A stretch of 49,544 nt of DNA, taken from a virus. The notes beneath the pieces were generated by a model, which was not told the DNA's origin, ran no database searches, and saw only the letters and a list, made by a program, of their open reading frames with translations. The position numbers were made by a program, and so were the translations under genes. Numbering within the stretch: the stretch's first letter is position 1; every line of letters begins with the position of its first letter. Positions 4,980-20,146 of the stretch are shown here, piece after piece. The stretch covers positions 1 to 49,544 of IMG/VR virus record IMGVR_UViG_3300028920_000776; one strand, written 5' to 3'.

Positions 4980-5468
4980 ATGCGTTCTATTACACGTGAG
5001 TATTCATTCGATGCCGCACATCGTCTGTACGGTTACCCCGGAAAGTGTTGTAATATTCACGGGCATACTTATAAAGTATTTGTAACCATTGAGTCTCTTT
5101 CAAATGTAGATACGCGTACAAATCCTTTTCTATTGGATTTTGGTACGCTTAAAAAAATCGTTCAACCGTTGATGGATGCATGGGATCATAAATTGATACT
5201 TTCTAAAAACGATCCTTTATGTTCTCACTTACTACAACCGTTTATCGAAGACGGCAGCGTTGTATACTTAGATTATGTACCGTCTGCTGAGAATATGGCA
5301 CGTTATCTTGCAGAGGCCGTCTTACAGAAATATCAAACGTACAAACCTGCTTCTAAACTATTCCATTGGGAAGCTTTAACTACTGATAAGGGTGTTCTAC
5401 CTGTCGCTGTAATTGTAACCGTGTATGAAACCCCGAAGAGCTACGCCACATATCGAACACCAGAATAA
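4980..5468 (+). CDS. queD: 6-carboxytetrahydropterin synthase QueD
   Basis: 162 residues. It converts dihydroneopterin triphosphate to 6-carboxy-5,6,7,8-tetrahydropterin, the second step from GTP to preQ0. Family marks are FDAAHRL (zinc ligand H14), CCNIHGHTY (catalytic Cys at 23 or 24, zinc ligands H27 and H29), LLDFGTLK, DHKLIL (D69-H70) and PSAENMARYL. The protein is longer than typical bacterial QueD (about 120) because of inserted loops in the middle and an extended C-terminus, common in phage forms. AAGGAG at 4968-4973 precedes the ATG. It is followed 11 bp later by queE; FolE2 and QueC, the other two steps, are encoded at 14455 and 13427. Confidence 0.93.
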   Translation: MRSITREYSFDAAHRLYGYPGKCCNIHGHTYKVFVTIESLSNVDTRTNPFLLDFGTLKKIVQPLMDAWDHKLILSKNDPLCSHLLQPFIEDGSVVYLDYVPSAENMARYLAEAVLQKYQTYKPASKLFHWEALTTDKGVLPVAVIVTVYETPKSYATYRTPE

Positions 5469-5479
5469 AGGTACGTACC

Positions 5480-6208
5480 ATGCAGAAACTAATAATATCC
5501 GAAATTTTCGAAAGTATACAAGGCGAAGGCAGTACAATAGGTTTTCCCGCTGTTTTTATTCGTACGTATGGCTGTAATCTCCAATGCCCTAATTGCGATA
5601 CGTCGTATTCGTATGGTGATAGCGATTACACAGAACTGACGCCTACACAAGTAGTCAATCGCGTTATGAAATCGAATACGCATGGATTAGTTATTACAGG
5701 TGGAGAGCCCACCATACAGTGGGGTTTACTGTACAAGGTATTTCGTACTTTGGTAGACAAAAGATGGCTGAGTTTGTTTATCATAGAATCTAACGGATTA
5801 ATCCCTATACAAAATACTCTACGAAGTACAATGGAATCTTTTGCCGTTCGATACGTAGTCTCCCCGAAGTTCTATAAAAAAGATTCGTACAATATGGACT
5901 CTTTAATAAAAATATTTCGTATGCATCGACAACAGGCCGAGCTCAAAATACTATTTGAAGGTCGCAGAGAAATATATGAAGCCTTGTCAATTGAAAAACG
6001 CCTTATAGAGCAAGGTACGCAGTTGCTCAATCCAATTATATTTCAACCGTTGATACCCCCCGGGATGATGTACGACGAAGAAGTTCCCGATTGGTTGGAG
6101 TCAGTATATAGTAACTATAATAAGTACCGTGCAGAATTCATAACGCCTACACGTTTCATCGTTCAACAACACAAATGGATATGGGGACAAAATAAACGTG
6201 GAGTTTAA
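5480..6208 (+). CDS. queE: 7-carboxy-7-deazaguanine synthase QueE (radical SAM)
   Basis: 242 residues. It contracts carboxytetrahydropterin to 7-carboxy-7-deazaguanine using S-adenosylmethionine and a [4Fe-4S] cluster. Seen directly: IFESIQGEGSTIGFPAVFIR at the N-terminus, cluster motif C32-x3-C36-x2-C39 (GCNLQCPNCDT), and TGGEP at 73-77. The C-terminal QQHKWIWG is also family-like. The gene sits between queD and the SbcD homologue, whose GTG start lies 11 bp inside its 3' end. Part of the preQ0 pathway that supplies the DpdA-like enzyme. Confidence 0.94.
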   Translation: MQKLIISEIFESIQGEGSTIGFPAVFIRTYGCNLQCPNCDTSYSYGDSDYTELTPTQVVNRVMKSNTHGLVITGGEPTIQWGLLYKVFRTLVDKRWLSLFIIESNGLIPIQNTLRSTMESFAVRYVVSPKFYKKDSYNMDSLIKIFRMHRQQAELKILFEGRREIYEALSIEKRLIEQGTQLLNPIIFQPLIPPGMMYDEEVPDWLESVYSNYNKYRAEFITPTRFIVQQHKWIWGQNKRGV

Positions 6209-7334: not shown

Positions 7335-9601
7335 TATTGAGAAAGCTCCAATTAAGAGGTGCTAAAGGTATAAAATATGGCCTGGGACTGGACGAAATAG
7401 AAATCGATTTTACAAAATTTCAACCAGGCTTAGTCGCTATTACAGGACGTAACGGTTCGGGAAAGACAACTTTGTTAGAAAATCTCACACCGTTCCGATC
7501 CTTATTTTCTCGTAAAGGTAAGCTACAGGGACATTTCTTTTTACCAGATTCCCATCGTATATTAACATTTCAAATAGGCGAAGATATCTATCGTGCCGAA
7601 GTATATGTTGACGCACAAAAAGATAAAGCAGGGGCTGCCTTGTACAAAAACGATAAAGACATAGCAACGTCTCCTCGTGAATACGATGCAGAAATAGACA
7701 AACTCTTTTTAGGGAAAAGCTTGTTTGAACAGTCTCTCTTCTTCGGACAAGACACCGAACGTATCTCCGATCTACGCGCAGGCGAGGCTAAAGAGTTTAT
7801 GATAAAACTTCTACGTCTCGATATGGCGCAAGCTTTACACAAACGTGCATCACTATATACAAATGATGCTCTTAAAGCATTTGAAAGTAAAGAAAACACA
7901 CAGCGTGATCTAATGAATAAAATCGGTGCGACAGAAAACCTACAAGAAGAATTGACAAAAGCTGAAAAGGATCTTGCCACACATAAAAGAGCAGAAGAAC
8001 TTGGTAACAAAGCTTTAGAAAAAGTAAAGAAACAACTACAGTCAGAAGAAGAGCTCCAGCGTCTTGAAGTAGAGTTACAGGATAAACTCGACGAATTAGA
8101 AAACTGGCATGCAAAGAACACCGCGCGTCATGCAAAGCACTCAGATATGTTAAAACTCTATTCTAAAGAAACCCTACATGAAACACTGCGTAAGTACCAC
8201 GAGAGTTTGGATCCTGTTACAGAAGAAGCTTATAATGAATATCGTGCGTTAGAAGAATCACGTAACACTTTAAATGAAAAGAAAAATGCGTTCCTCGAAC
8301 GTATGCAAAAAGCTCAAGAGGAATATTCTGAAATTGAAACATCACGCAACGCGCATTGTAGTTCTATTGAAAAAGCAATCGACCGTATCCGTATAAGAAG
8401 AGCCCAAGCTCTCGATGCCGCATCCGTGATAGAGGAAGTACCTTGCAACGAAGAAATGGGTAAGAAGTGTCCGTTATTAACGAGTGCAAATGAAGCTCGT
8501 AATCTTATAGACCCACTATATGATGAATTGAAAAATGCGGAAGCACAGCTTCAAGAGGCACGCGCGTATAAAAAAGATGAGTCAGATAGTTTGCAGGAAC
8601 GTATCGATTTGATAAAAAATAAACTCTCTACCGTATCAGATGAACTTGAAGAGGTAACACAAAAACTATCCGACGCAGGTAACGTAGACCATCATTGGAA
8701 AGTCAAACAAAATCAACTACGTGCAATAGACGAGGTACAGCACAAGATACAAACCTGCGATGAAGTACTTGAAAAAGAAGAATCCGACTATGAGAACTTT
8801 AAAGATATAGCCCGCGATACGATGGGTAAACTACATAAGGCGAAAGAAGAAATTTCAACAAAGATGATCGAGATACACAAAACGTTTGACTTCGAAACGT
8901 TGCGTGAGAAAAAGCTTTTCTACGAAACCAACCTTCGCGAGAAGCGTTCTTTAATAGAACAAACGGCTACGCTCGTCGGACAATTGAACCAACGTATACA
9001 GGATGCTGAACAGCTAAAAGAAGATTTGAAGAATGCAAAACGTGCTACGCGCGTTGCACTTAATAATTTAGGTTCTTGGCGTACTATTGAAAAAGCTTTT
9101 GGTAAAGATGGTATACAAGCTTTTGAAATTAAGAAAGCCCTTCCAGCGATTGTAAAAATGATGAACGAACTTCTCATAGGAGAACTCGGGCAGAAGTTTT
9201 CTCTTAACTTCCGGATGAAGAGACACGGAACTAAGGGGCAATTAATAAATACGTTCGATCCTTTAATCACACGTTATGCCGATGAAGAAGTTCTTGAAGA
9301 AAACGTTCCTTTGACAAACCTAAGTAGGGGAGAACGTATTTTAGTGTTTGTTGCTATGAGCGAGGCTGTCGGAGTATACTTACGTAACTCTATAGGATTA
9401 GATTTAAAAACATCCTTTGTCGACGAAGCCGATGGGCCGCTAGATCCTTCAAACCGTTCTGACTATTTACGCACAAGAACACATGTACATGATTTATGCG
9501 GCCTGTACCACACATTTATAATATCACAGTCACCTGATATATACGAACAGATCCCGCAGAAACTCATACTCAAAAAAGGCCAAGTGGAGGTCGTTGTATG
9601 A
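7331..9601 (+). CDS. sbcC: SbcC/Rad50-like ATPase
   Basis: 756 residues, an SMC-type ATPase partner of the preceding nuclease. Walker A is GRNGSGKTT at 39-47, the ABC signature is LSRGERILVFVA near the C-terminus and Walker B is SFVDEADGPLD. Between them lie two long coiled-coil arms. At the apex, where Rad50 and SbcC carry a CxxC zinc hook, the sequence is VPCNEEMGKKCPLL, a C-x7-C arrangement, so dimerisation at the hook may differ. ATGA overlaps tie it to the genes before and after. It would act with recombination functions such as the RuvC-like resolvase. Confidence 0.92.
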   Translation: MILRKLQLRGAKGIKYGLGLDEIEIDFTKFQPGLVAITGRNGSGKTTLLENLTPFRSLFSRKGKLQGHFFLPDSHRILTFQIGEDIYRAEVYVDAQKDKAGAALYKNDKDIATSPREYDAEIDKLFLGKSLFEQSLFFGQDTERISDLRAGEAKEFMIKLLRLDMAQALHKRASLYTNDALKAFESKENTQRDLMNKIGATENLQEELTKAEKDLATHKRAEELGNKALEKVKKQLQSEEELQRLEVELQDKLDELENWHAKNTARHAKHSDMLKLYSKETLHETLRKYHESLDPVTEEAYNEYRALEESRNTLNEKKNAFLERMQKAQEEYSEIETSRNAHCSSIEKAIDRIRIRRAQALDAASVIEEVPCNEEMGKKCPLLTSANEARNLIDPLYDELKNAEAQLQEARAYKKDESDSLQERIDLIKNKLSTVSDELEEVTQKLSDAGNVDHHWKVKQNQLRAIDEVQHKIQTCDEVLEKEESDYENFKDIARDTMGKLHKAKEEISTKMIEIHKTFDFETLREKKLFYETNLREKRSLIEQTATLVGQLNQRIQDAEQLKEDLKNAKRATRVALNNLGSWRTIEKAFGKDGIQAFEIKKALPAIVKMMNELLIGELGQKFSLNFRMKRHGTKGQLINTFDPLITRYADEEVLEENVPLTNLSRGERILVFVAMSEAVGVYLRNSIGLDLKTSFVDEADGPLDPSNRSDYLRTRTHVHDLCGLYHTFIISQSPDIYEQIPQKLILKKGQVEVVV

Positions 9602-11755: not shown

Positions 11756-11793
11756 ATATGTATACACAGATCCAACGCGTAGAAGGAGGCATC

Positions 11794-12765
11794 ATGCAAA
11801 AGTTTTTTGGGGTATGTCGATCCTTATGCATATCGATGATATGGATAACGTTACTTTTTATCGGATGCGAGGGGATAGAAGGGCCCCCCGGCCCACAAGG
11901 GCCGCAGGGTGAACAGGGTCCACCGGGTGAGTGTACATACGACGCTGAGGGCATCGAAAAAATAAACGTTCTCACGCAACGTCTTGACGGTGTTGAGGAT
12001 GACTGGGCGGGCGTCAGTGAGTATTTGGATTCACTAGAAACACGCTGTCAGCTTATGCAAGAACAGGTTGAAGAGCTATCCGAACGTCTGTACAATATAG
12101 CTTATCGACTCGACTCTATACCGCCCGATCCTCCACAAGTTGGGGGCTACGCCGACGTATTTATGAATTGGGATACCACAACGACCTACGACAACTTCAA
12201 CTTACAATTCGTTAATGAGTTTACATCTAAAATTGATTCTGCTCAATTGAACATATGGTCAGGAGGTATATTCGATTATATAGCGGTACCAGAACCCGCT
12301 GAGTGTATTCCAGAATTGGGTGCTAACCAAGATAGCATTGACTCTGATTATATTCGAATACGTTTTAACAATATGCTTCTTCCAGGACAATCATTTCAAT
12401 GTGGTCTTGGAGATATCGATGGTGATAGATCTGAAATTATTATCGATATGTGGACAGGTAGTGTTATTCGCTCCGCGTTCTTCGACTCAACCGGTTCAGT
12501 ACGTTTTTATGCGGGTACCGCGCCAAGTATAGGTGAAATCACTTTAATATGGAACCCCAACGCTGAAGAAGATCTTGCGGGATACAAGATTTATTATGGA
12601 CTGAGTTCTAGGTCATATGACACCATTTTGGATGTAAACAACGTAACGGAAGCTACTATAAAAAATCTCGTTGCTGATGTTACTTATTACTTTGCGGTTA
12701 CTGCTTATGACCTAACGGGCAACGAAAGTGGTTATTCGAACGAGGTGGAGGCTGTAATAGAATGA
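11794..12765 (+). CDS. Phage-encoded lipoprotein with collagen-like repeats and FN3 domain
   Basis: 323 residues. The N-terminus is a lipoprotein signal (hydrophobic ISMIWITLLFIG, then C25 as lipidation cysteine; lipobox LFIGC). Seven Gly-x-y triplets follow at 27-47 (GPPGPQGPQGEQGPPGE), then a coiled coil of about 60 residues, a beta-rich central region, and a C-terminal fibronectin type III domain (ITLIWNPNAEEDLAGYKIYY to YFAVTAYDLTGNESGYSNEV). ATG 11794 was preferred over 11758 because GAAGGAGG at 11782-11789 precedes it. It should be anchored in the host envelope with a trimeric stalk. A superinfection-exclusion or surface-conversion role is plausible; virion decoration is less likely given the signal. 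Confidence 0.82.
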   Translation: MQKFFGVCRSLCISMIWITLLFIGCEGIEGPPGPQGPQGEQGPPGECTYDAEGIEKINVLTQRLDGVEDDWAGVSEYLDSLETRCQLMQEQVEELSERLYNIAYRLDSIPPDPPQVGGYADVFMNWDTTTTYDNFNLQFVNEFTSKIDSAQLNIWSGGIFDYIAVPEPAECIPELGANQDSIDSDYIRIRFNNMLLPGQSFQCGLGDIDGDRSEIIIDMWTGSVIRSAFFDSTGSVRFYAGTAPSIGEITLIWNPNAEEDLAGYKIYYGLSSRSYDTILDVNNVTEATIKNLVADVTYYFAVTAYDLTGNESGYSNEVEAVIE

Positions 12766-13426: not shown

Positions 13427-14152
13427 ATGGTAACAAAACCTCGAGCAGTTGTATGCCTTAGCGGCGGAATGGATAGTGTAACTTCTCTTGCGTTCGCTAT
13501 ACGAGAATGTAATGTTGTTCTTATGCACGTCGATTACGGGCAGCTGACGGAAGATCGCGAGCGCGAGAGCTCTCGGCGTATTGCGAAATGGTATGACATT
13601 GAGGAGGTATATACTTTCAAAACCGACGTACTACAAAAAGTTGGAGCATCGTGCCTTACAGACAAAAACATCGATGTTCCAAAAGACGGTGTTGATCCTA
13701 CGACAATACCTATTTCATACGTACCTTTTCGTAATGGAAATATTCTAGCCATGGCGGCTTCGTTGGCACAGGCAGTTGACGCATCTTTTATATATACAGG
13801 CTTCGTAGAAGAAGATAGCTCGGGGTACCCCGATTGTCGTGAAATATTTGTTACAGCATTTCAAACAGCTATTACGGAAGGTACTCGCCCCGAAACCGTT
13901 ATTGAAATACGCACGCCCGTTATTCATATGACGAAAATGGAAGTTATCAAGTCCGCAATACAGTTACATGTACCTATGCATTTAACATGGTCGTGCTACG
14001 AGAATAACGATGCTGCATGTGGTGTTTGTGATAGCTGTCGCCTTCGTATAAAAGGTTTTCAAGAAATGGGCGTCATTGATCCCATCAAATACGCGGTGAA
14101 CATTGACTGGAAAGGCTGCAAACCTTTTGAACTCGAAAAAAGTAACTCCTGA
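13427..14152 (+). CDS. queC: 7-cyano-7-deazaguanine (preQ0) synthase QueC
   Basis: 241 residues, the normal length for QueC. It uses ATP and ammonia to turn 7-carboxy-7-deazaguanine into preQ0. PP-loop SGGMDS is at 12-17; zinc cysteines are C190, C198, C201 and C204 (SCYENNDAACGVCDSC). FRNGNILAMAASLA and the DSSGYPDCR block are also family-typical. There is no fused glutaminase domain, which argues against direct formation of the dG+ derivative by this protein. Driven by promoter P4 and followed by a winged-helix gene and folE2, giving the first and last steps of the pathway in one operon. Confidence 0.95.
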   Translation: MVTKPRAVVCLSGGMDSVTSLAFAIRECNVVLMHVDYGQLTEDRERESSRRIAKWYDIEEVYTFKTDVLQKVGASCLTDKNIDVPKDGVDPTTIPISYVPFRNGNILAMAASLAQAVDASFIYTGFVEEDSSGYPDCREIFVTAFQTAITEGTRPETVIEIRTPVIHMTKMEVIKSAIQLHVPMHLTWSCYENNDAACGVCDSCRLRIKGFQEMGVIDPIKYAVNIDWKGCKPFELEKSNS

Positions 14153-14474
14153 TAATGCGACGAAGACGCCTAAAATATTTAAGATAGAAGTAGGGGGAGG
14201 ATTTCGCGTTGCGCTCCCCTTGTTTGAAATATATGATAAATATGGTGTCGTTTTACCTTTAGATTATACATGTAAAACTATCTTCTTAGCATTACTATTG
14301 AACCCTTTTGTTGAAGATTCCTACCTTGAAAGCTTCTCAAAGTCTTACCCGTCTGTGATTTGTCGATTAAGAAAAATAATTACTAACGTTTACGGACACA
14401 AGATAGCCCGCGTACGTCGTTGCGGCTATCAACTAATATGGAGAGATACCCCCAATGAAAGACGTACAAGCTGA
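14103..14474 (+). CDS. OmpR-type winged-helix DNA-binding protein
   Basis: Up to 123 residues. The C-terminal part (TIFLALLLNPFVEDSYLESF, then SVICRLRKII, then HKIARVRRCGYQLIW) has the layout of the OmpR/PhoB effector domain: an LLxxLxxNP helix, a recognition helix containing RLRK, and a wing ending in R-x-GY-x-L. There is no receiver domain, so it is not a two-component regulator. The 50-bp overlap with queC and the lack of an ATG make the start uncertain (TTG 14103, or TTG 14127 with GGAAAGG upstream). It is a candidate for the regulator that binds the repeated operator sites, but no sequence evidence links them. Confidence 0.62.
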   Translation: MTGKAANLLNSKKVTPDNATKTPKIFKIEVGGGFRVALPLFEIYDKYGVVLPLDYTCKTIFLALLLNPFVEDSYLESFSKSYPSVICRLRKIITNVYGHKIARVRRCGYQLIWRDTPNERRTS

Positions 14475-15222
14475 AGAAGACCGCAGAGGAAAAACCATAC
14501 ATAAAGTAGGAGTACGTAAACTCCAGACACTAGTACAGTATTGTGAAACACAAATGTGGGCTGAAATAAGTTCGTATATTACTTTAGATAGTTTCAAACG
14601 CGGTGCACACATGTCGCGTTTTGTCGAAGTAATGAATAAAACTCCGCAACGAATCGACAAGCCTATAAGCTATCTAAAGGGCTACATGAACGACCTACTC
14701 AACGCACATAAGGTCGAAGAAGTATTTTTGAAGGTACGCACAGCTATACCTTTTGATGTACTATCGCCGCGTACACGAAATTTTTCAACACGTAAAATAC
14801 CCCTCGAGTTGGAAGGCGAAATTGTAAAAGGTACACCTAAATATTTTATACGCACAAAAATTTATGTAACATCGCTGTGCCCATGCAGTAAAGAAATATC
14901 CGATCAGGGTGCACACAACCAACGCGCCATAATAGATGTACGTATGCAAGTTACAAAGAACTTAGAAATAGCAGATATTATTCATAGGTTACGTACATTG
15001 GGTAGTGCACCAATATATCCCATTCTCAAACGTTCAGACGAACGCTACGTTACAGAACGCGCTTACGCAAATCCTAAATTCTGCGAGGATATCGCACGCG
15101 ACGTATCTCTTGAACTTGATAAGATCGAAGGAATTTCTAATTACAGTGTCGTAATCGAAAGTGAAGAAAGTATCCATGATCATAACGCTTTAGCAATTAT
15201 TGACTACTTCAAATTCGATTGA
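14455..15222 (+). CDS. folE2: GTP cyclohydrolase IB (FolE2/MptA type)
   Basis: 255 residues. It makes dihydroneopterin triphosphate from GTP, the first step towards preQ0. The family signature VTSLCPCSKEIS..GAHNQR is at 138-157 with C142, C144 and H154; RGAHMSRF at 49-56 and the C-terminal ESIHDHNA also match. It is the metal-flexible type IB enzyme, not the zinc type IA. GGAGAG at 14440-14445 precedes ATG 14455, and the gene overlaps the winged-helix gene by 20 bp. Encoding the enzyme frees the phage from host pterin supply when it draws on GTP for DNA modification. Confidence 0.95.
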   Translation: MKDVQAEEDRRGKTIHKVGVRKLQTLVQYCETQMWAEISSYITLDSFKRGAHMSRFVEVMNKTPQRIDKPISYLKGYMNDLLNAHKVEEVFLKVRTAIPFDVLSPRTRNFSTRKIPLELEGEIVKGTPKYFIRTKIYVTSLCPCSKEISDQGAHNQRAIIDVRMQVTKNLEIADIIHRLRTLGSAPIYPILKRSDERYVTERAYANPKFCEDIARDVSLELDKIEGISNYSVVIESEESIHDHNALAIIDYFKFD

Positions 15223-15277: not shown

Positions 15278-15748
15278 ATGGGTAAGATTCCACCTATAAA
15301 AGTTCCTTTACACTTTGCCTTTCCTGAAATTGACATAAAATTTACTAAGTTACACCCTGACGCTATAGCACCTACGAAAGGTTATGTAGACGACGCGGCT
15401 TTTGATTTATATACATACCAAAAGCTTATAATACCTCCACATTCGATGATGCTTGTTAAAGTAGGTATTGCTGTAGAATGTCCCCCGTATATATGTTGGA
15501 CGTTACGTTCGCGCGGGTCAATGCATACGGGAGGTGTGTGGGTATATCCTGGAATGGGTGATCCTGGATATCGAGGTGACGTTGGCGTAAATGCCTGGAA
15601 TACAACTAACCATCCGTTAATATATAGTAAAGGTGAACGTATAGGTCAGATTCAATTTATGTTTCGCCCAACTATTAATCTTATAGAAGTAGAGACTATT
15701 GAAGAAAGCTCGCGTAATACAAAAGGATTCGGATCAACCGGACGTTGA
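15278..15748 (+). CDS. dut: dUTPase
   Basis: 156 residues, trimeric dUTPase type. The five motifs are visible: DAAFDLYT, RSRGSM, a metal/substrate loop GMGDPGYRGDVGVNAWN, GERIGQIQF and the C-terminal TKGFGSTG. It removes dUTP and supplies dUMP to the ThyX enzyme encoded four kilobases downstream in the same operon. Its last 50 bp overlap the start of the polymerase gene in another frame, so the two are probably translationally coupled. Confidence 0.95.
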   Translation: MGKIPPIKVPLHFAFPEIDIKFTKLHPDAIAPTKGYVDDAAFDLYTYQKLIIPPHSMMLVKVGIAVECPPYICWTLRSRGSMHTGGVWVYPGMGDPGYRGDVGVNAWNTTNHPLIYSKGERIGQIQFMFRPTINLIEVETIEESSRNTKGFGSTGR

Positions 15749-18125
15749 TCTTTACACTCTCAAAAAGTTTTGCTCCGAATGTGAGTACAACGGTAATCTC
15801 TCACTCCCCTCAGAAATAAGTTCGTACGCAAAAGTATTTTTAGTAGGAGAGGCTCCCGCACGTGAAGAGTTCGAAAAGGAACGAAACTTCGTAGGTGACT
15901 CAGGACATTTACTTACGCGGTATCTTAGAGAGATCGGGCATCACCGACGTGACGTTCATATAGGTAATATTATACGTTGTAAAATCCCAAGTAAGCTTTC
16001 CCGTACTGATAAAGACTCTTTAATAAAACGTTTATCCGCATGCTGTGGTCGTTACATATTAGACGACATTAAACGTGCGAAACCTACTATTGTTGTTCTG
16101 ATGGGGAAGCCTGCTATACACTTTTTTATAAAAGGGAGTCCTTCAGTTACAAAAGTACGCGGGCGTATTTTCTATTCTGAGCTCGCGCAGACACACATAA
16201 TATGTACATATCATCCTGCGGCGGTTATGCGCGACTGGACTTATGAGAAGTCGATTGTCCACGATCTCGAAAAAGCTTTTGCGTTTGTAGAGAACCCAAA
16301 CATCGAGGTAAAAGAACCTACGTATAAAATTGCACGTGGCTTAGAAGATTCATTACACATATGTGAATTTCTACGCAATCAAGATGAGATCGTATTTGAC
16401 GTAGAAACAGATTCATTGGATTGGTTAGATGGTGATATTTTAAGTTTCGGTTTTTCACACAAACCTTTTTCAGGTGTGACTATACCGTTTCGTTCTATAC
16501 ATAGTACGCCTTTAAACGCAAAGGAACGTACTAAGTTAGTTAATCATGGTATTAAACCCCTTCTCGAATGCCCTAATAAGAAGATAGGACACAATATATT
16601 ATTTGATTGTCATTGGGCAAAGAACTATGATATAACTGTCAACAATGTAACGTTTGACACTATGTTAGCACATCATCTCATCGATGAAAATTTTCCTTTA
16701 GATCTCGACACCCTCGCAGATTTTTATACTGACATGGGTACTTACGCAGACGAACTCTACGCGCATTTACCTAGTAAGAAGTCAAGTTATAATGTAGTAC
16801 CTGATGAAGTACTATGGATATATGGTGCTAAAGACTGTGACGCTGAATTTCGCTTAAAAACAATTTTCGACGAGAAACTCGATAAAGAAGGCGTCCGTTG
16901 GGTTTTTGACAATATTACTGTTCCCTTAATAGACGTCATTTTAGAAATCGAAAGACGTGGAGTCTATGTCGATAGAGATGGCTTCGAAGCTGCCGCGATA
17001 GAGGCGGGTGAAGAGCTTGACCGTCTAACGGAAGAGATGCGTACACATAGTGGTATGGGCGATGATTTTAATCCTAATTCAACGAAACAGTTACAAGATA
17101 TACTTTTCAACACATTAATATTAACACCTGTACGTGAAACGAAAACAGGTTATTCGACAGATGTTAAAACACTTGAAGCTTTAGAAGGACAACACGAGTT
17201 CGTCGATTTATTACAAACGTATCGTAAGTTAGCCAAATTTAAAGGTACCTATTTAGATGGTACGCGTGATGGTAAAGAAGCTGGTCTTATAAGGAGAATA
17301 CGCGAAGACGGGCGTATCCATACATCATACAAAATTCATGGTACAGGCACCGGACGGTTATCCTCAGCAGCTCCTAACTTGCAAAATATACCCCGTGGGG
17401 CTTTAATACGCGCATTATTCAAGGCGGCGCCCGGGTGTAAGTTTGTGATTGCCGACTTTGAACGCGGTGAAATGTTTACGTCAGCACATTTGAGTCGCGA
17501 CGTACAATTACAGAGAGCCTTACGTGAAGATATTCATCGGGCTTTAGCCGCGCGTATGTATAATAAAAAACGCGAAGACGTTACTAAAGAAGAACGTGTA
17601 GCTGCTAAGACCGTAATATTTGGTATTCAGTATGGTAGAGGTCCCGACTCACTTGCGAAACAGTTGAAAATATCACGCGCGGAAGCGATTCGTTATATTG
17701 TAGCCTTCTTCGATAGCTACACACAATTAGAAGCGTGGATAAAGCGACAACATGATCATGTGAGGAGGTACGGGTTCGTTCGGAATCTCTTCGGACGCAA
17801 AAGACACCTTTACGGAATATTTTCAGTACAAAATTCTTACACCCGTGGCGAGATATTACGCCAGGCACAAAATTCTCCTGTACAGGGTAGTCTAGCTGAT
17901 GCAGGGCATCTTGCGACTATTGAGTTAGTTAAACGTTTAAAAGAAGACTTCTCCGATGTCGATATAGGCGTTGTACTACTAGTACATGATGAGATAGTAT
18001 TAGAAGTTCCCGAGGCGTATGTTGAACCTGTAAAGGCATTATTAAAAGAAGTTTTCGAAAAGCCACGTAAGGGTTTACAAATACCCGTTGAAATACTCGT
18101 AGGAGATAACTGGAGTGCAAAATGA
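15699..18125 (+). CDS. Family-A DNA polymerase with N-terminal FeS uracil-DNA glycosylase domain
   Basis: 808 residues, three modules. Residues 20-195 are a family 4-like uracil-DNA glycosylase: C25-x2-C28, GEAPAREEFEKERNFVG, NIIRC (C94), C115/C116 and YHPAAVMR (171-178), so all iron-sulfur ligands appear present. About 225-420 is a DEDDy 3'-5' exonuclease (FDVETDS, GHNILFD, YGAKDCD). The rest is a PolA polymerase: motif A ADFERGEMF (variant of DYSQIELR), motif B AAKTVIFGIQYGRG, motif C LLVHDEIVLEVP. The start is TTG 15699, 50 bp inside dut; no later start keeps the glycosylase intact. SPO1-like phage polymerases also carry a UDG-like domain. It is the replicative polymerase of this phage. 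Confidence 0.9.
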   Translation: MKKARVIQKDSDQPDVDLYTLKKFCSECEYNGNLSLPSEISSYAKVFLVGEAPAREEFEKERNFVGDSGHLLTRYLREIGHHRRDVHIGNIIRCKIPSKLSRTDKDSLIKRLSACCGRYILDDIKRAKPTIVVLMGKPAIHFFIKGSPSVTKVRGRIFYSELAQTHIICTYHPAAVMRDWTYEKSIVHDLEKAFAFVENPNIEVKEPTYKIARGLEDSLHICEFLRNQDEIVFDVETDSLDWLDGDILSFGFSHKPFSGVTIPFRSIHSTPLNAKERTKLVNHGIKPLLECPNKKIGHNILFDCHWAKNYDITVNNVTFDTMLAHHLIDENFPLDLDTLADFYTDMGTYADELYAHLPSKKSSYNVVPDEVLWIYGAKDCDAEFRLKTIFDEKLDKEGVRWVFDNITVPLIDVILEIERRGVYVDRDGFEAAAIEAGEELDRLTEEMRTHSGMGDDFNPNSTKQLQDILFNTLILTPVRETKTGYSTDVKTLEALEGQHEFVDLLQTYRKLAKFKGTYLDGTRDGKEAGLIRRIREDGRIHTSYKIHGTGTGRLSSAAPNLQNIPRGALIRALFKAAPGCKFVIADFERGEMFTSAHLSRDVQLQRALREDIHRALAARMYNKKREDVTKEERVAAKTVIFGIQYGRGPDSLAKQLKISRAEAIRYIVAFFDSYTQLEAWIKRQHDHVRRYGFVRNLFGRKRHLYGIFSVQNSYTRGEILRQAQNSPVQGSLADAGHLATIELVKRLKEDFSDVDIGVVLLVHDEIVLEVPEAYVEPVKALLKEVFEKPRKGLQIPVEILVGDNWSAK

Positions 18126-18766
18126 GCGTAAAACTTATATCTATAACAAACGATCCTGAGCTAAAAATTATGCGAGCTTCGCAAGTATGCCGCAATATAT
18201 TTGAACACGGCAGACCGGATAACCGTACTATCGTTAATTATGTACGTACACGTATGGATGTAGGTCACTGGGGGGTATTAGAACACGCATCCGCATCTGT
18301 TTTGTGGCGTGATATATCACGCGCGTGTTCTCATCAGTTAGTCAGACACCGAATAGCCTCTTATTGTCAAACATCGCAGCGTTATACAGAACCTTCCGGT
18401 GACGCGGGTTTTGTAACACCTCCGTCTATTATAACAGCAGGTAAACAGGATTTATTTGCGGCGGCACTTAAACATGTGTATTCCATATATGAAGAACTTT
18501 TAGACGTTGTACCGAAAGAAGACGCGCGTTTTATACTCCCCAATGCTACGATGACTAATATTATGATCACAATGAACTTTCGTTCATGGAGACATTTTTT
18601 CAAACTTCGTTGCGGTCAACACGCTCAGTGGGAAATCCGCCGCATGGCCGCACAAACACTTGATTTACTACAAGCGTATACACTCGCAACATTTGGTGAT
18701 TTTGTAATACATAAGCATACAGATGGATCAATTACACGTGTTGAAATTCCGGAGAACTGCGAATGA
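18122..18766 (+). CDS. thyX: Flavin-dependent thymidylate synthase ThyX
   Basis: 214 residues. It makes dTMP from dUMP using methylenetetrahydrofolate and FAD. The ThyX motif RHR-x7-S is at 75-85 (RHRIASYCQTS, followed by QRYT), and the N-terminal helix and HWGVLEHAS block match the family. It overlaps the polymerase by an ATGA, forming with dut a dUTP-to-dTMP route. This suggests the phage DNA has ordinary thymine rather than a substituted pyrimidine. Confidence 0.94.
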   Translation: MSVKLISITNDPELKIMRASQVCRNIFEHGRPDNRTIVNYVRTRMDVGHWGVLEHASASVLWRDISRACSHQLVRHRIASYCQTSQRYTEPSGDAGFVTPPSIITAGKQDLFAAALKHVYSIYEELLDVVPKEDARFILPNATMTNIMITMNFRSWRHFFKLRCGQHAQWEIRRMAAQTLDLLQAYTLATFGDFVIHKHTDGSITRVEIPENCE

Positions 18767-19308
18767 AAAACATACGTATATGTTTTGTAGGGGCACACGG
18801 AACGGGTAAAACTACCCTTGCATTTGAAGTTCATAAGTATCTGTATAGAGAACTTCACGAAAAAGATGTCGTACTCATTTCGGAAAGTTCAGATGGCGCA
18901 AAAAAAGCTTTACATTTAGAAAAGAACGATCCTTCTTACGAAGAAGCATTAATACATTATCGTGCGAAGCTTTTTTATAGAACGCCGGAGTTCATTTCAG
19001 ATCGTTCATTATTTGATCCCTTGGGCTATTCGATAGTAAAAACCGGACAACTGTCTAGTGAACTGTTACAATACGCATTGGATGTACACAAAAAGTTAAA
19101 CCCTCTACTTTTTTATGTACCTATTGCGATACCTTTGGTAGGAGAATCTCATCGTCCTGCAAATGAAAAATACCAACAACACGTTGACGATTCTATAAAA
19201 GCCGTGCTCACAGGTGCTGGAGTACAGTATCATACTATTACACGTGTAGATTTGGTGAGTCGCTTGACTTATATAATTACAGTTTTAAGGAGACACATCG
19301 ATGAGTAA
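18763..19308 (+). CDS. P-loop kinase/ATPase of the NadR/AAA_28-like type
   Basis: 181 residues. P-loop GAHGTGKTT at 10-18, a DRSLFDPLGY segment that fits the DRS/DRx substrate-lid motif of deoxynucleoside and nucleotide kinases, and a C-terminal helical region. Proteins of this shape include NadR kinases and phage nucleotide kinases. It overlaps thyX by 4 bp and the DpdA-like gene by 8 bp, so a role in nucleotide or modified-base supply is likely, though the substrate cannot be read from the sequence. Confidence 0.75.
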   Translation: MKNIRICFVGAHGTGKTTLAFEVHKYLYRELHEKDVVLISESSDGAKKALHLEKNDPSYEEALIHYRAKLFYRTPEFISDRSLFDPLGYSIVKTGQLSSELLQYALDVHKKLNPLLFYVPIAIPLVGESHRPANEKYQQHVDDSIKAVLTGAGVQYHTITRVDLVSRLTYIITVLRRHIDE

Positions 19309-20146
19309 ACATACTGTTAAGATATTTCATACCGCACCGGTTGCGTTCATGCAGGTACTTGAACAGCACCAAGACTTTTTATTTATCGAAGCGCACGCCG
19401 CTCTCGAGAATAAGAAGTACGCAGATTATCTTGTAACACACAAAACGTTGAAACCCAACGTGTACGTAATAATGGACAATTCCGCATATCTGCTGGGTGG
19501 TCCTATGTCTGAAAAAGATTTTATGCGCGCGTACGAATATTTTATACCCGACTGTATTATCGCACTAGACCATCCATATAGTAGGAAAAAAACTCTCGAT
19601 GCTACAGAAAGTTTTGTTGCGCGATATAAAAAGCAAATCGATGCAAAGATTATGGCAGTCCCTCAGGGGGAAACTTACGCTGATTATATATCGTGTTTTT
19701 GGCGGTTATGCGAAAACCCCGACGTTGATGTAATCGGTGTTAATATGTTTATGGATTGGGAACATCCAGATATGTCGAAACTAGAAAAAACCGAACGCAT
19801 ATGCAGATATCGTAATATGATACTCTGGAACGCACACGACATCGTACGTATGGCTACTGAGAATAAACGTCTTCCGAAGTCTTTACATCTACTCGGTATT
19901 ACTTCGGGGCGAGAGTTAACATTTATACGCGATAATAATTTGTTTACTGTTAAATCGTGCGATAGCTCGTCCGCGTTCATTCACGGGTACTACGGTGTTA
20001 AATACGGTCCGAAGGGGTTAAAAGCAAAAGACTGGGATCATAAACTAGACTTCTCTATTAAGGAAGTTACCGATGAACAACGTAAGAATATCTTACATAA
20101 CATAAAGATTCTCAACAGGTTGAGAGGAGCTAATGTCACACTTTAA
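19301..20146 (+). CDS. dpdA: DpdA-like DNA-guanine transglycosylase (TGT superfamily)
   Basis: 281 residues with the motif order of tRNA-guanine transglycosylases: MDNSAY at 58-63 (D59 in place of the acid of TDSGG), CIIALDHPY (D90), AVPQGE (Q122-G123, as in VQGG), HLLGITSG at 196-203 and SCDSSSAFIHG with D221 in the position of the nucleophilic aspartate. The tRNA-binding zinc site of bacterial TGT (CxCxxC) is absent, as in phage DpdA proteins that act on DNA. It should insert preQ0 into phage DNA, and all four preQ0 genes are in this window. The fold and context are strong; the DNA substrate is inferred from known phage pathways. Confidence 0.85.
   Translation: MSKHTVKIFHTAPVAFMQVLEQHQDFLFIEAHAALENKKYADYLVTHKTLKPNVYVIMDNSAYLLGGPMSEKDFMRAYEYFIPDCIIALDHPYSRKKTLDATESFVARYKKQIDAKIMAVPQGETYADYISCFWRLCENPDVDVIGVNMFMDWEHPDMSKLEKTERICRYRNMILWNAHDIVRMATENKRLPKSLHLLGITSGRELTFIRDNNLFTVKSCDSSSAFIHGYYGVKYGPKGLKAKDWDHKLDFSIKEVTDEQRKNILHNIKILNRLRGANVTL

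Follow-up and report, generated by a model that had tools for sequence, protein, structure and literature searches.

A predicted iron-sulfur uracil-DNA glycosylase domain of family-4 type in a phage family-A DNA polymerase

Introduction

Is the uracil-DNA glycosylase (UDG) domain at the N terminus of a phage DNA polymerase a working enzyme, a structural part of the polymerase, or a remnant? The question is raised by an open reading frame (ORF) in the 49,544-base stretch of DNA analysed here, an IMG/VR virus record (IMGVR_UViG_3300028920_000776) that we call the window. According to the original prediction, the domain may be catalytic rather than vestigial, its apparently intact iron-sulfur (FeS) version is notable, and its fusion to the polymerase next to dut and thyX points to fork-coupled surveillance for uracil.

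Domain organization of the fusion polymerase

The ORF contains the domains PF03167, PF01612 and PF00476 in the order found in SPO1-type polymerases (Table 1), which bears out the predicted fusion of a UDG to a proofreading PolA polymerase. The TTG codon at 15699 is the sole common start codon ahead of residue 135, which lies inside the UDG domain, and the in-frame stop upstream is the TAG at 15690–15692; no other common start would therefore yield the complete UDG domain. Residues D234, E236, D303, Y375 and D379 of the exonuclease domain and D586, E591, K637 and D764 of the polymerase domain, identified from conserved columns, are retained. The whole-protein model is of high confidence (pTM 0.89). 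The UDG domain would take the place of the 5'-nuclease of bacterial Pol I. The agreement of coordinates, frame, domains, key residues, and overlaps with dut and thyX is far beyond chance, and an origin from a cellular Pol I or contamination is ruled out by the virus record and its tape-measure protein. Polymerase motif A (17451–17477) reads ADFERGEMF, as against the usual DYSQxELR, and its DFERGE segment is shared with the relative L261 described below.

Table 1. Coordinates of the fusion polymerase, its domains and motifs, and the adjoining genes in the window
Feature	Position	Strand	Basis
dUTPase, 50-nt overlap with polymerase start	15278..15748	+	PF00692, 3e-19; overlap kept in L261
UDG-exonuclease-PolA fusion polymerase, 808 aa, TTG start	15699..18125	+	same start site in 72% identical relative L261
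N-terminal FeS family-4-type UDG domain, aa 25–198	15771..16292	+	PF03167 (aa 41–183), 6e-20; TIGR00758, 106–110 bits; AlphaFold/Foldseek
C25-x2-C28, predicted cluster ligands 1 and 2	15771..15782	+	conservation ranks 1 and 5 of 169 columns
Motif A GEAPAREE, G50–E57; E51 at water-activating position	15846..15869	+	role from UdgX equivalent E52
HIGNIIRC: N90 (uracil contact) and C94 (predicted cluster ligand 3)	15957..15980	+	N90 role from equivalent N91
C116, predicted cluster ligand 4	16044..16046	+	conservation rank 2 of 169
Motif B HPAAVMR, H172–R178	16212..16232	+	alignment and conserved columns
3'-5' proofreading exonuclease domain, aa 215–394	16341..16880	+	PF01612 DNA_pol_A_exo1, 3e-15
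Family-A polymerase domain, aa 430–806	16986..18116	+	PF00476 DNA_pol_A, 1e-95
ThyX, 4-nt overlap with polymerase stop	18122..18766	+	PF02511, 4e-56; TIGR02170 above cut-off; absent from L261 slot
P-loop kinase, thymidylate-kinase-like	18763..19308	+	PF13521, 3e-13; phrog_2107 thymidylate kinase, 1e-15

Residues and fold of the UDG domain

All four cysteines at the FeS-ligand positions of family 4 (C25, C28, C94 and C116) are present, as are the active-site residues E51, N90, H172 and R178, and the GEAP and HPA motifs of the original prediction occur within motifs A and B. Comparison with L261 identifies C116, and not C115, as the conserved cysteine. The active-site roles used here, taken from UdgX and family 4, are water activation by E51, uracil contacts by N90 and H172, and phosphate contact by R178; in UdgX itself, E52 activates the water and N91 contacts uracil (PMC10359453). 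Motif A of the window ends in alanine (GEAPA) in place of the final glycine of the canonical family-4 motif GE(A/G)PG (PMC10359453). GEAPA is also found in L261 and in five more relatives with active-site residues kept, and the idea that it is a sign of decay was dropped because the motif recurs where the rest of the site is intact.

The closest solved relatives of residues 1–203 in a phmmer search are Thermotoga TM0511 (2e-25), TthUDGA (1e-18) and StoUDG (4e-18), all of which belong to family 4. The AlphaFold model of the UDG domain, based on a 75-sequence alignment, has a pLDDT of 89.5. In the structural comparison with family 4 and UdgX that had been proposed as a check, Foldseek ranks the family-4 structures 1l9g and 1vk2 (E values of 4e-17 to 1e-16), 1ui1/1ui0 and 4zby above UdgX (1e-14). 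TM0511, TthUDGA and StoUDG share the fold, the four cysteines and the E/N/H/R set with the window domain; however, they are stand-alone enzymes with GE(A/G)PG, whereas the window domain is fused. Because its motif A ends in alanine and its score of 106–110 bits against NCBIfam TIGR00758 (family-4 UDG) is under the cut-off of 125.3, we term the domain family-4-type and do not file it as a family-4 enzyme. UdgX has a family-4-like fold, but a UdgX identity is ruled out by a score of 55–59 bits against a cut-off of 190 bits. The KRRIH loop with the nucleophilic histidine is absent, with no histidine in residues 95–112, and motif A lacks the glutamine of UdgX (GEAPA, not GEQPG). No second UDG is present elsewhere in the window.

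Selection on the UDG domain

The viral locus L261, found by a scan built from the window protein and its tree neighbours, is syntenic with the window and encodes a polymerase 72% identical over the whole protein. The identity is 70.5% in the UDG domain, 78% in the exonuclease and 74% in the polymerase, with dN values of 0.24, 0.15 and 0.22, respectively. Synonymous divergence is close to saturation or beyond it (pS 0.66–0.78), and the ratio for the UDG domain is about 0.15, a value whose exact size is unreliable. The UDG domain and the polymerase are under purifying selection of similar strength. In L261, GEAPAREE, the TTG start, every cysteine and all four active-site residues are unchanged; the joint conservation of start and cysteines supports translation of the N-terminal cysteines. 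Domain architecture, purifying selection, the four ligand cysteines and the E/N/H/R set can be read directly from the sequences, and the fold from the model; with ligands and active site intact, a family-4-like predicted fold and polymerase-like selection, the domain has the appearance of an active enzyme and not of a vestige, as originally proposed.

Distribution among viral polymerases

Fusions of this kind were found by tblastn in phages of Bacillus, Serratia, Pseudomonas, Brevundimonas, Streptomyces, Rhizobium, Thermus and Yersinia, and in a methanogen-associated virus; a single-protein search of viral contigs gave no matches. UDG-PolA fusions account for 67 of the 80 top-ranked loci in a viral scan with exonuclease-domain patterns; this proportion is not a frequency, since fusions score better when loci are ranked by match to the query. 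Among the 80 best cellular PolA loci, none has a UDG domain. Four cysteines are kept in 64 of the 67 fused relatives; 46 combine them with E/N/H/R(K), and 18 have at least one of E/N/H/R altered. The three exceptions are L027, in which one ligand differs, L053, which lacks the cysteines, and L048, which is cut by a contig end. When the 169 columns are ordered by conservation across the 67 fusions, the cysteines take places 1, 2, 4 and 5, with R178 (12), H172 (16), E57 (28), E51 (29) and N90 (30) further down. Judged by these alignments, the intact FeS version is the common state of viral UDG-PolA fusions and the SPO1-type polymerases are a degenerate outlier, contrary to the expectation that an intact version is unusual. 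The window enzyme represents, in well-preserved form, a known phage design that has received little study; it is not something new. Papers describing phage UDG-PolA fusions were not found in the literature searched; UDG-polymerase fusions were reportedly treated by Aravind and Koonin in 2000.

In a quick tree built from the polymerase part, nine relatives that lack E, N and H but have all four cysteines fall into one clade, while other alterations are scattered. The members of the clade are L006, L058, L059, L072, L078, L080, L093, L095 and L097, in which E is replaced by K/R, N by G/S/A, and H by S/A. The polymerase of Streptomyces phage KimJongPhill likewise has the cysteines, with E changed to K, N to G and H to A, and the culturable Brevundimonas phage StAshley has an intact domain. 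The nearest tree neighbour of the window, L034, has a decayed motif A, and motif A is altered in L022/L025 too. A separate scan with UDG patterns adds a group with catalytic residues but no cysteines, 13 of the 50 scored; the GEA and N motifs were part of its selection, and so it gives no frequencies. Fusions with E/N/H/R kept and FeS cysteines absent include L101, L104, L110, L117, L119, L161 and L166, among others. A link between catalytic loss and base-modification genes was rejected because independent tree pairs give it no support; the raw counts of ThyA-like/hydroxymethylase neighbours (13 of 21 altered against 10 of 63 intact relatives) mislead, since most catalytic losses represent one clade.

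Among phage family-A polymerases, a UDG domain that retains every cluster ligand and a full active site is widespread and maintained by selection. Since intact domains, domains with cysteines but no catalysis, and domains with catalysis but no cysteines all occur naturally, a comparison of enzymes can test what the cluster and uracil excision each do in a replicase.

Genomic context

The genes dut and thyX adjoin the polymerase gene in the window as had been pointed out, but they do not form a general unit with it: in 50 records of relatives, dUTPase is found in 2, ThyX in 13 and a ThyA-family match in 9–11, all lower bounds because the records are often fragments. L261 keeps the dut overlap, whereas its thyX slot (L261 6338–6637) holds an unrelated 99-residue ORF, and no Thy1 match occurs anywhere on the 20-kb contig. 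On this gene order, linkage to dut is supported within the small lineage of the window and L261, and linkage to thyX is not.

Genes for a DnaB-like helicase, a Toprim primase and a gp32-like (SSB-like) protein lie near the polymerase gene, and the window record has no match to a family-B polymerase; for these reasons, the fusion enzyme is probably the replicative polymerase of the phage. Neither of the two AP endonuclease families searched for is encoded in the window, so the repair of excised sites would need host enzymes.

Proposed function and alternatives

The reading that we favour, with moderate confidence, is a phage replicative PolA with an FeS family-4-type UDG domain that acts alongside the polymerase to clear uracil from phage DNA. 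The domain would hold a 4Fe-4S cluster, flip out uracil and excise it, and tethering to the polymerase may focus excision on phage DNA at about the time of copying. The adjoining dUTPase would lower uracil incorporation, with the UDG domain complementing it. The least certain elements are whether excision would take place at the moving fork or on the finished duplex, and whether ThyX would belong to a unit with the polymerase and dut. Fork-coupled uracil surveillance by the predicted UDG domain is plausible, but there is a case against excision at the fork itself: an AP site in the template would block the polymerase or miscode, and AP endonucleases of the two families are missing from the window. 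The TIGR00758 score, the altered motif A in L034 and L022/L025, and the lack of ThyX in L261 were counted against uracil removal by the fusion enzyme. So was the finding that about a quarter of the fused relatives have the cysteines but altered catalytic residues, which makes catalysis dispensable in this architecture.

The strongest competing view, given that the ligands have survived evolutionary losses of the catalytic residues, is that the FeS cluster serves as a structural scaffold and glycosylase activity, if any, is secondary. The cysteines outrank the catalytic residues in conservation, the clade of nine lacks E, N and H yet has all four cysteines, the whole-protein model is predicted with high confidence, and vaccinia UNG serves as a processivity factor (PMC10253040). 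Nevertheless, the catalytic set, none of which a scaffold needs, is kept at deep divergence in most relatives, including the window and L261, and we regard a purely structural cluster as possible but on the unlikely side. Since the ligands are the most conserved UDG columns and persist where E, N and H are lost, we also put forward, tentatively and at low probability, that the cluster may be kept for the polymerase itself, as a structural strut, a DNA-bound redox sensor or a processivity element, independently of uracil excision.

Archaeal family-B polymerases have a read-ahead pocket for template uracil. The UDG domain could similarly bind uracil in the template before the polymerase reaches it and stall the enzyme without excision, consistent with the fusion to a proofreading polymerase and the intact uracil-pocket residues; the retention of the water-activating E51, superfluous in a pocket that only binds uracil, makes such a sensor doubtful. 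A vestigial UDG kept merely through linkage to the polymerase would fit the decayed motif A of close tree neighbours and the Gly-to-Ala change in the window, but is very improbable: the conservation of all key residues over near-saturated synonymous divergence, at a dN close to that of the polymerase, is strong evidence that the domain is not a vestige.

Comparison with known systems

The family-A polymerase of Thermus phage phiLo (PDB: 9QHS) also combines an N-terminal UDG domain and PolA in one chain, although it is longer than the window protein (1175 against 808 residues). Its annotated ORF (L010 4935–8462) has the four cysteines and E/N/H/R, as in the window. The 9QHS chain comprises residues 34–1175 of that ORF and is without the CNSC pair; the absence of these two predicted ligands from the solved chain bears on the reading of the structure. 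The title of the 9QHS record mentions a modified template, and no paper on the structure was found.

The SPO1-type polymerases (phi18, SP8, Goe9/10), cited in the original prediction as carriers of a related domain, do have the domain order of the window, at about 30% identity overall. In phi18, however, the ligand cysteines are absent, motif A is degenerate and N is replaced by S, whereas the window domain is intact, and such a degenerate domain is a poor guide to this kind of fusion.

The vaccinia D4 UDG is a separate subunit of another UDG family and is not known to have an FeS cluster. Like the window domain, it is a UDG built into a replication machine (PMC10253040). The DnaE-type polymerases of some Yersinia and Salmonella strains also join a PF03167 UDG to a replicative-type polymerase, but they are C-family enzymes in which the UDG replaces the OB and C-terminal domains, whereas the window enzyme belongs to family A (PMC3919608).

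Other genes of the window and L261

The window encodes a full set of preQ0-making proteins, QueD-like (4980–5468), QueE-like (5480–6208), QueC (13427–14152) and FolE2 (14455–15222), and this gene content suggests 7-deazaguanine modification of the phage DNA. A 281-residue protein (window 19301–20146), 58% identical to its counterpart in L261 (7156–8019), has no Pfam or NCBIfam match, and its PHROG matches are all of unknown function; judged by eye, its sequence resembles a TGT/DpdA-type transglycosylase. Collagen-like repeats occur in proteins of both loci that are 48% identical, as GPPGPQGPQGEQ in the window (11758–12765) and as EQG repeats in L261 (2–964). In L261, an ORF at 8588–9004 that begins with the LAGLIDADG-like segment YTAGYFDGEGSI is absent from the equivalent place in the window and is probably a homing endonuclease insertion.
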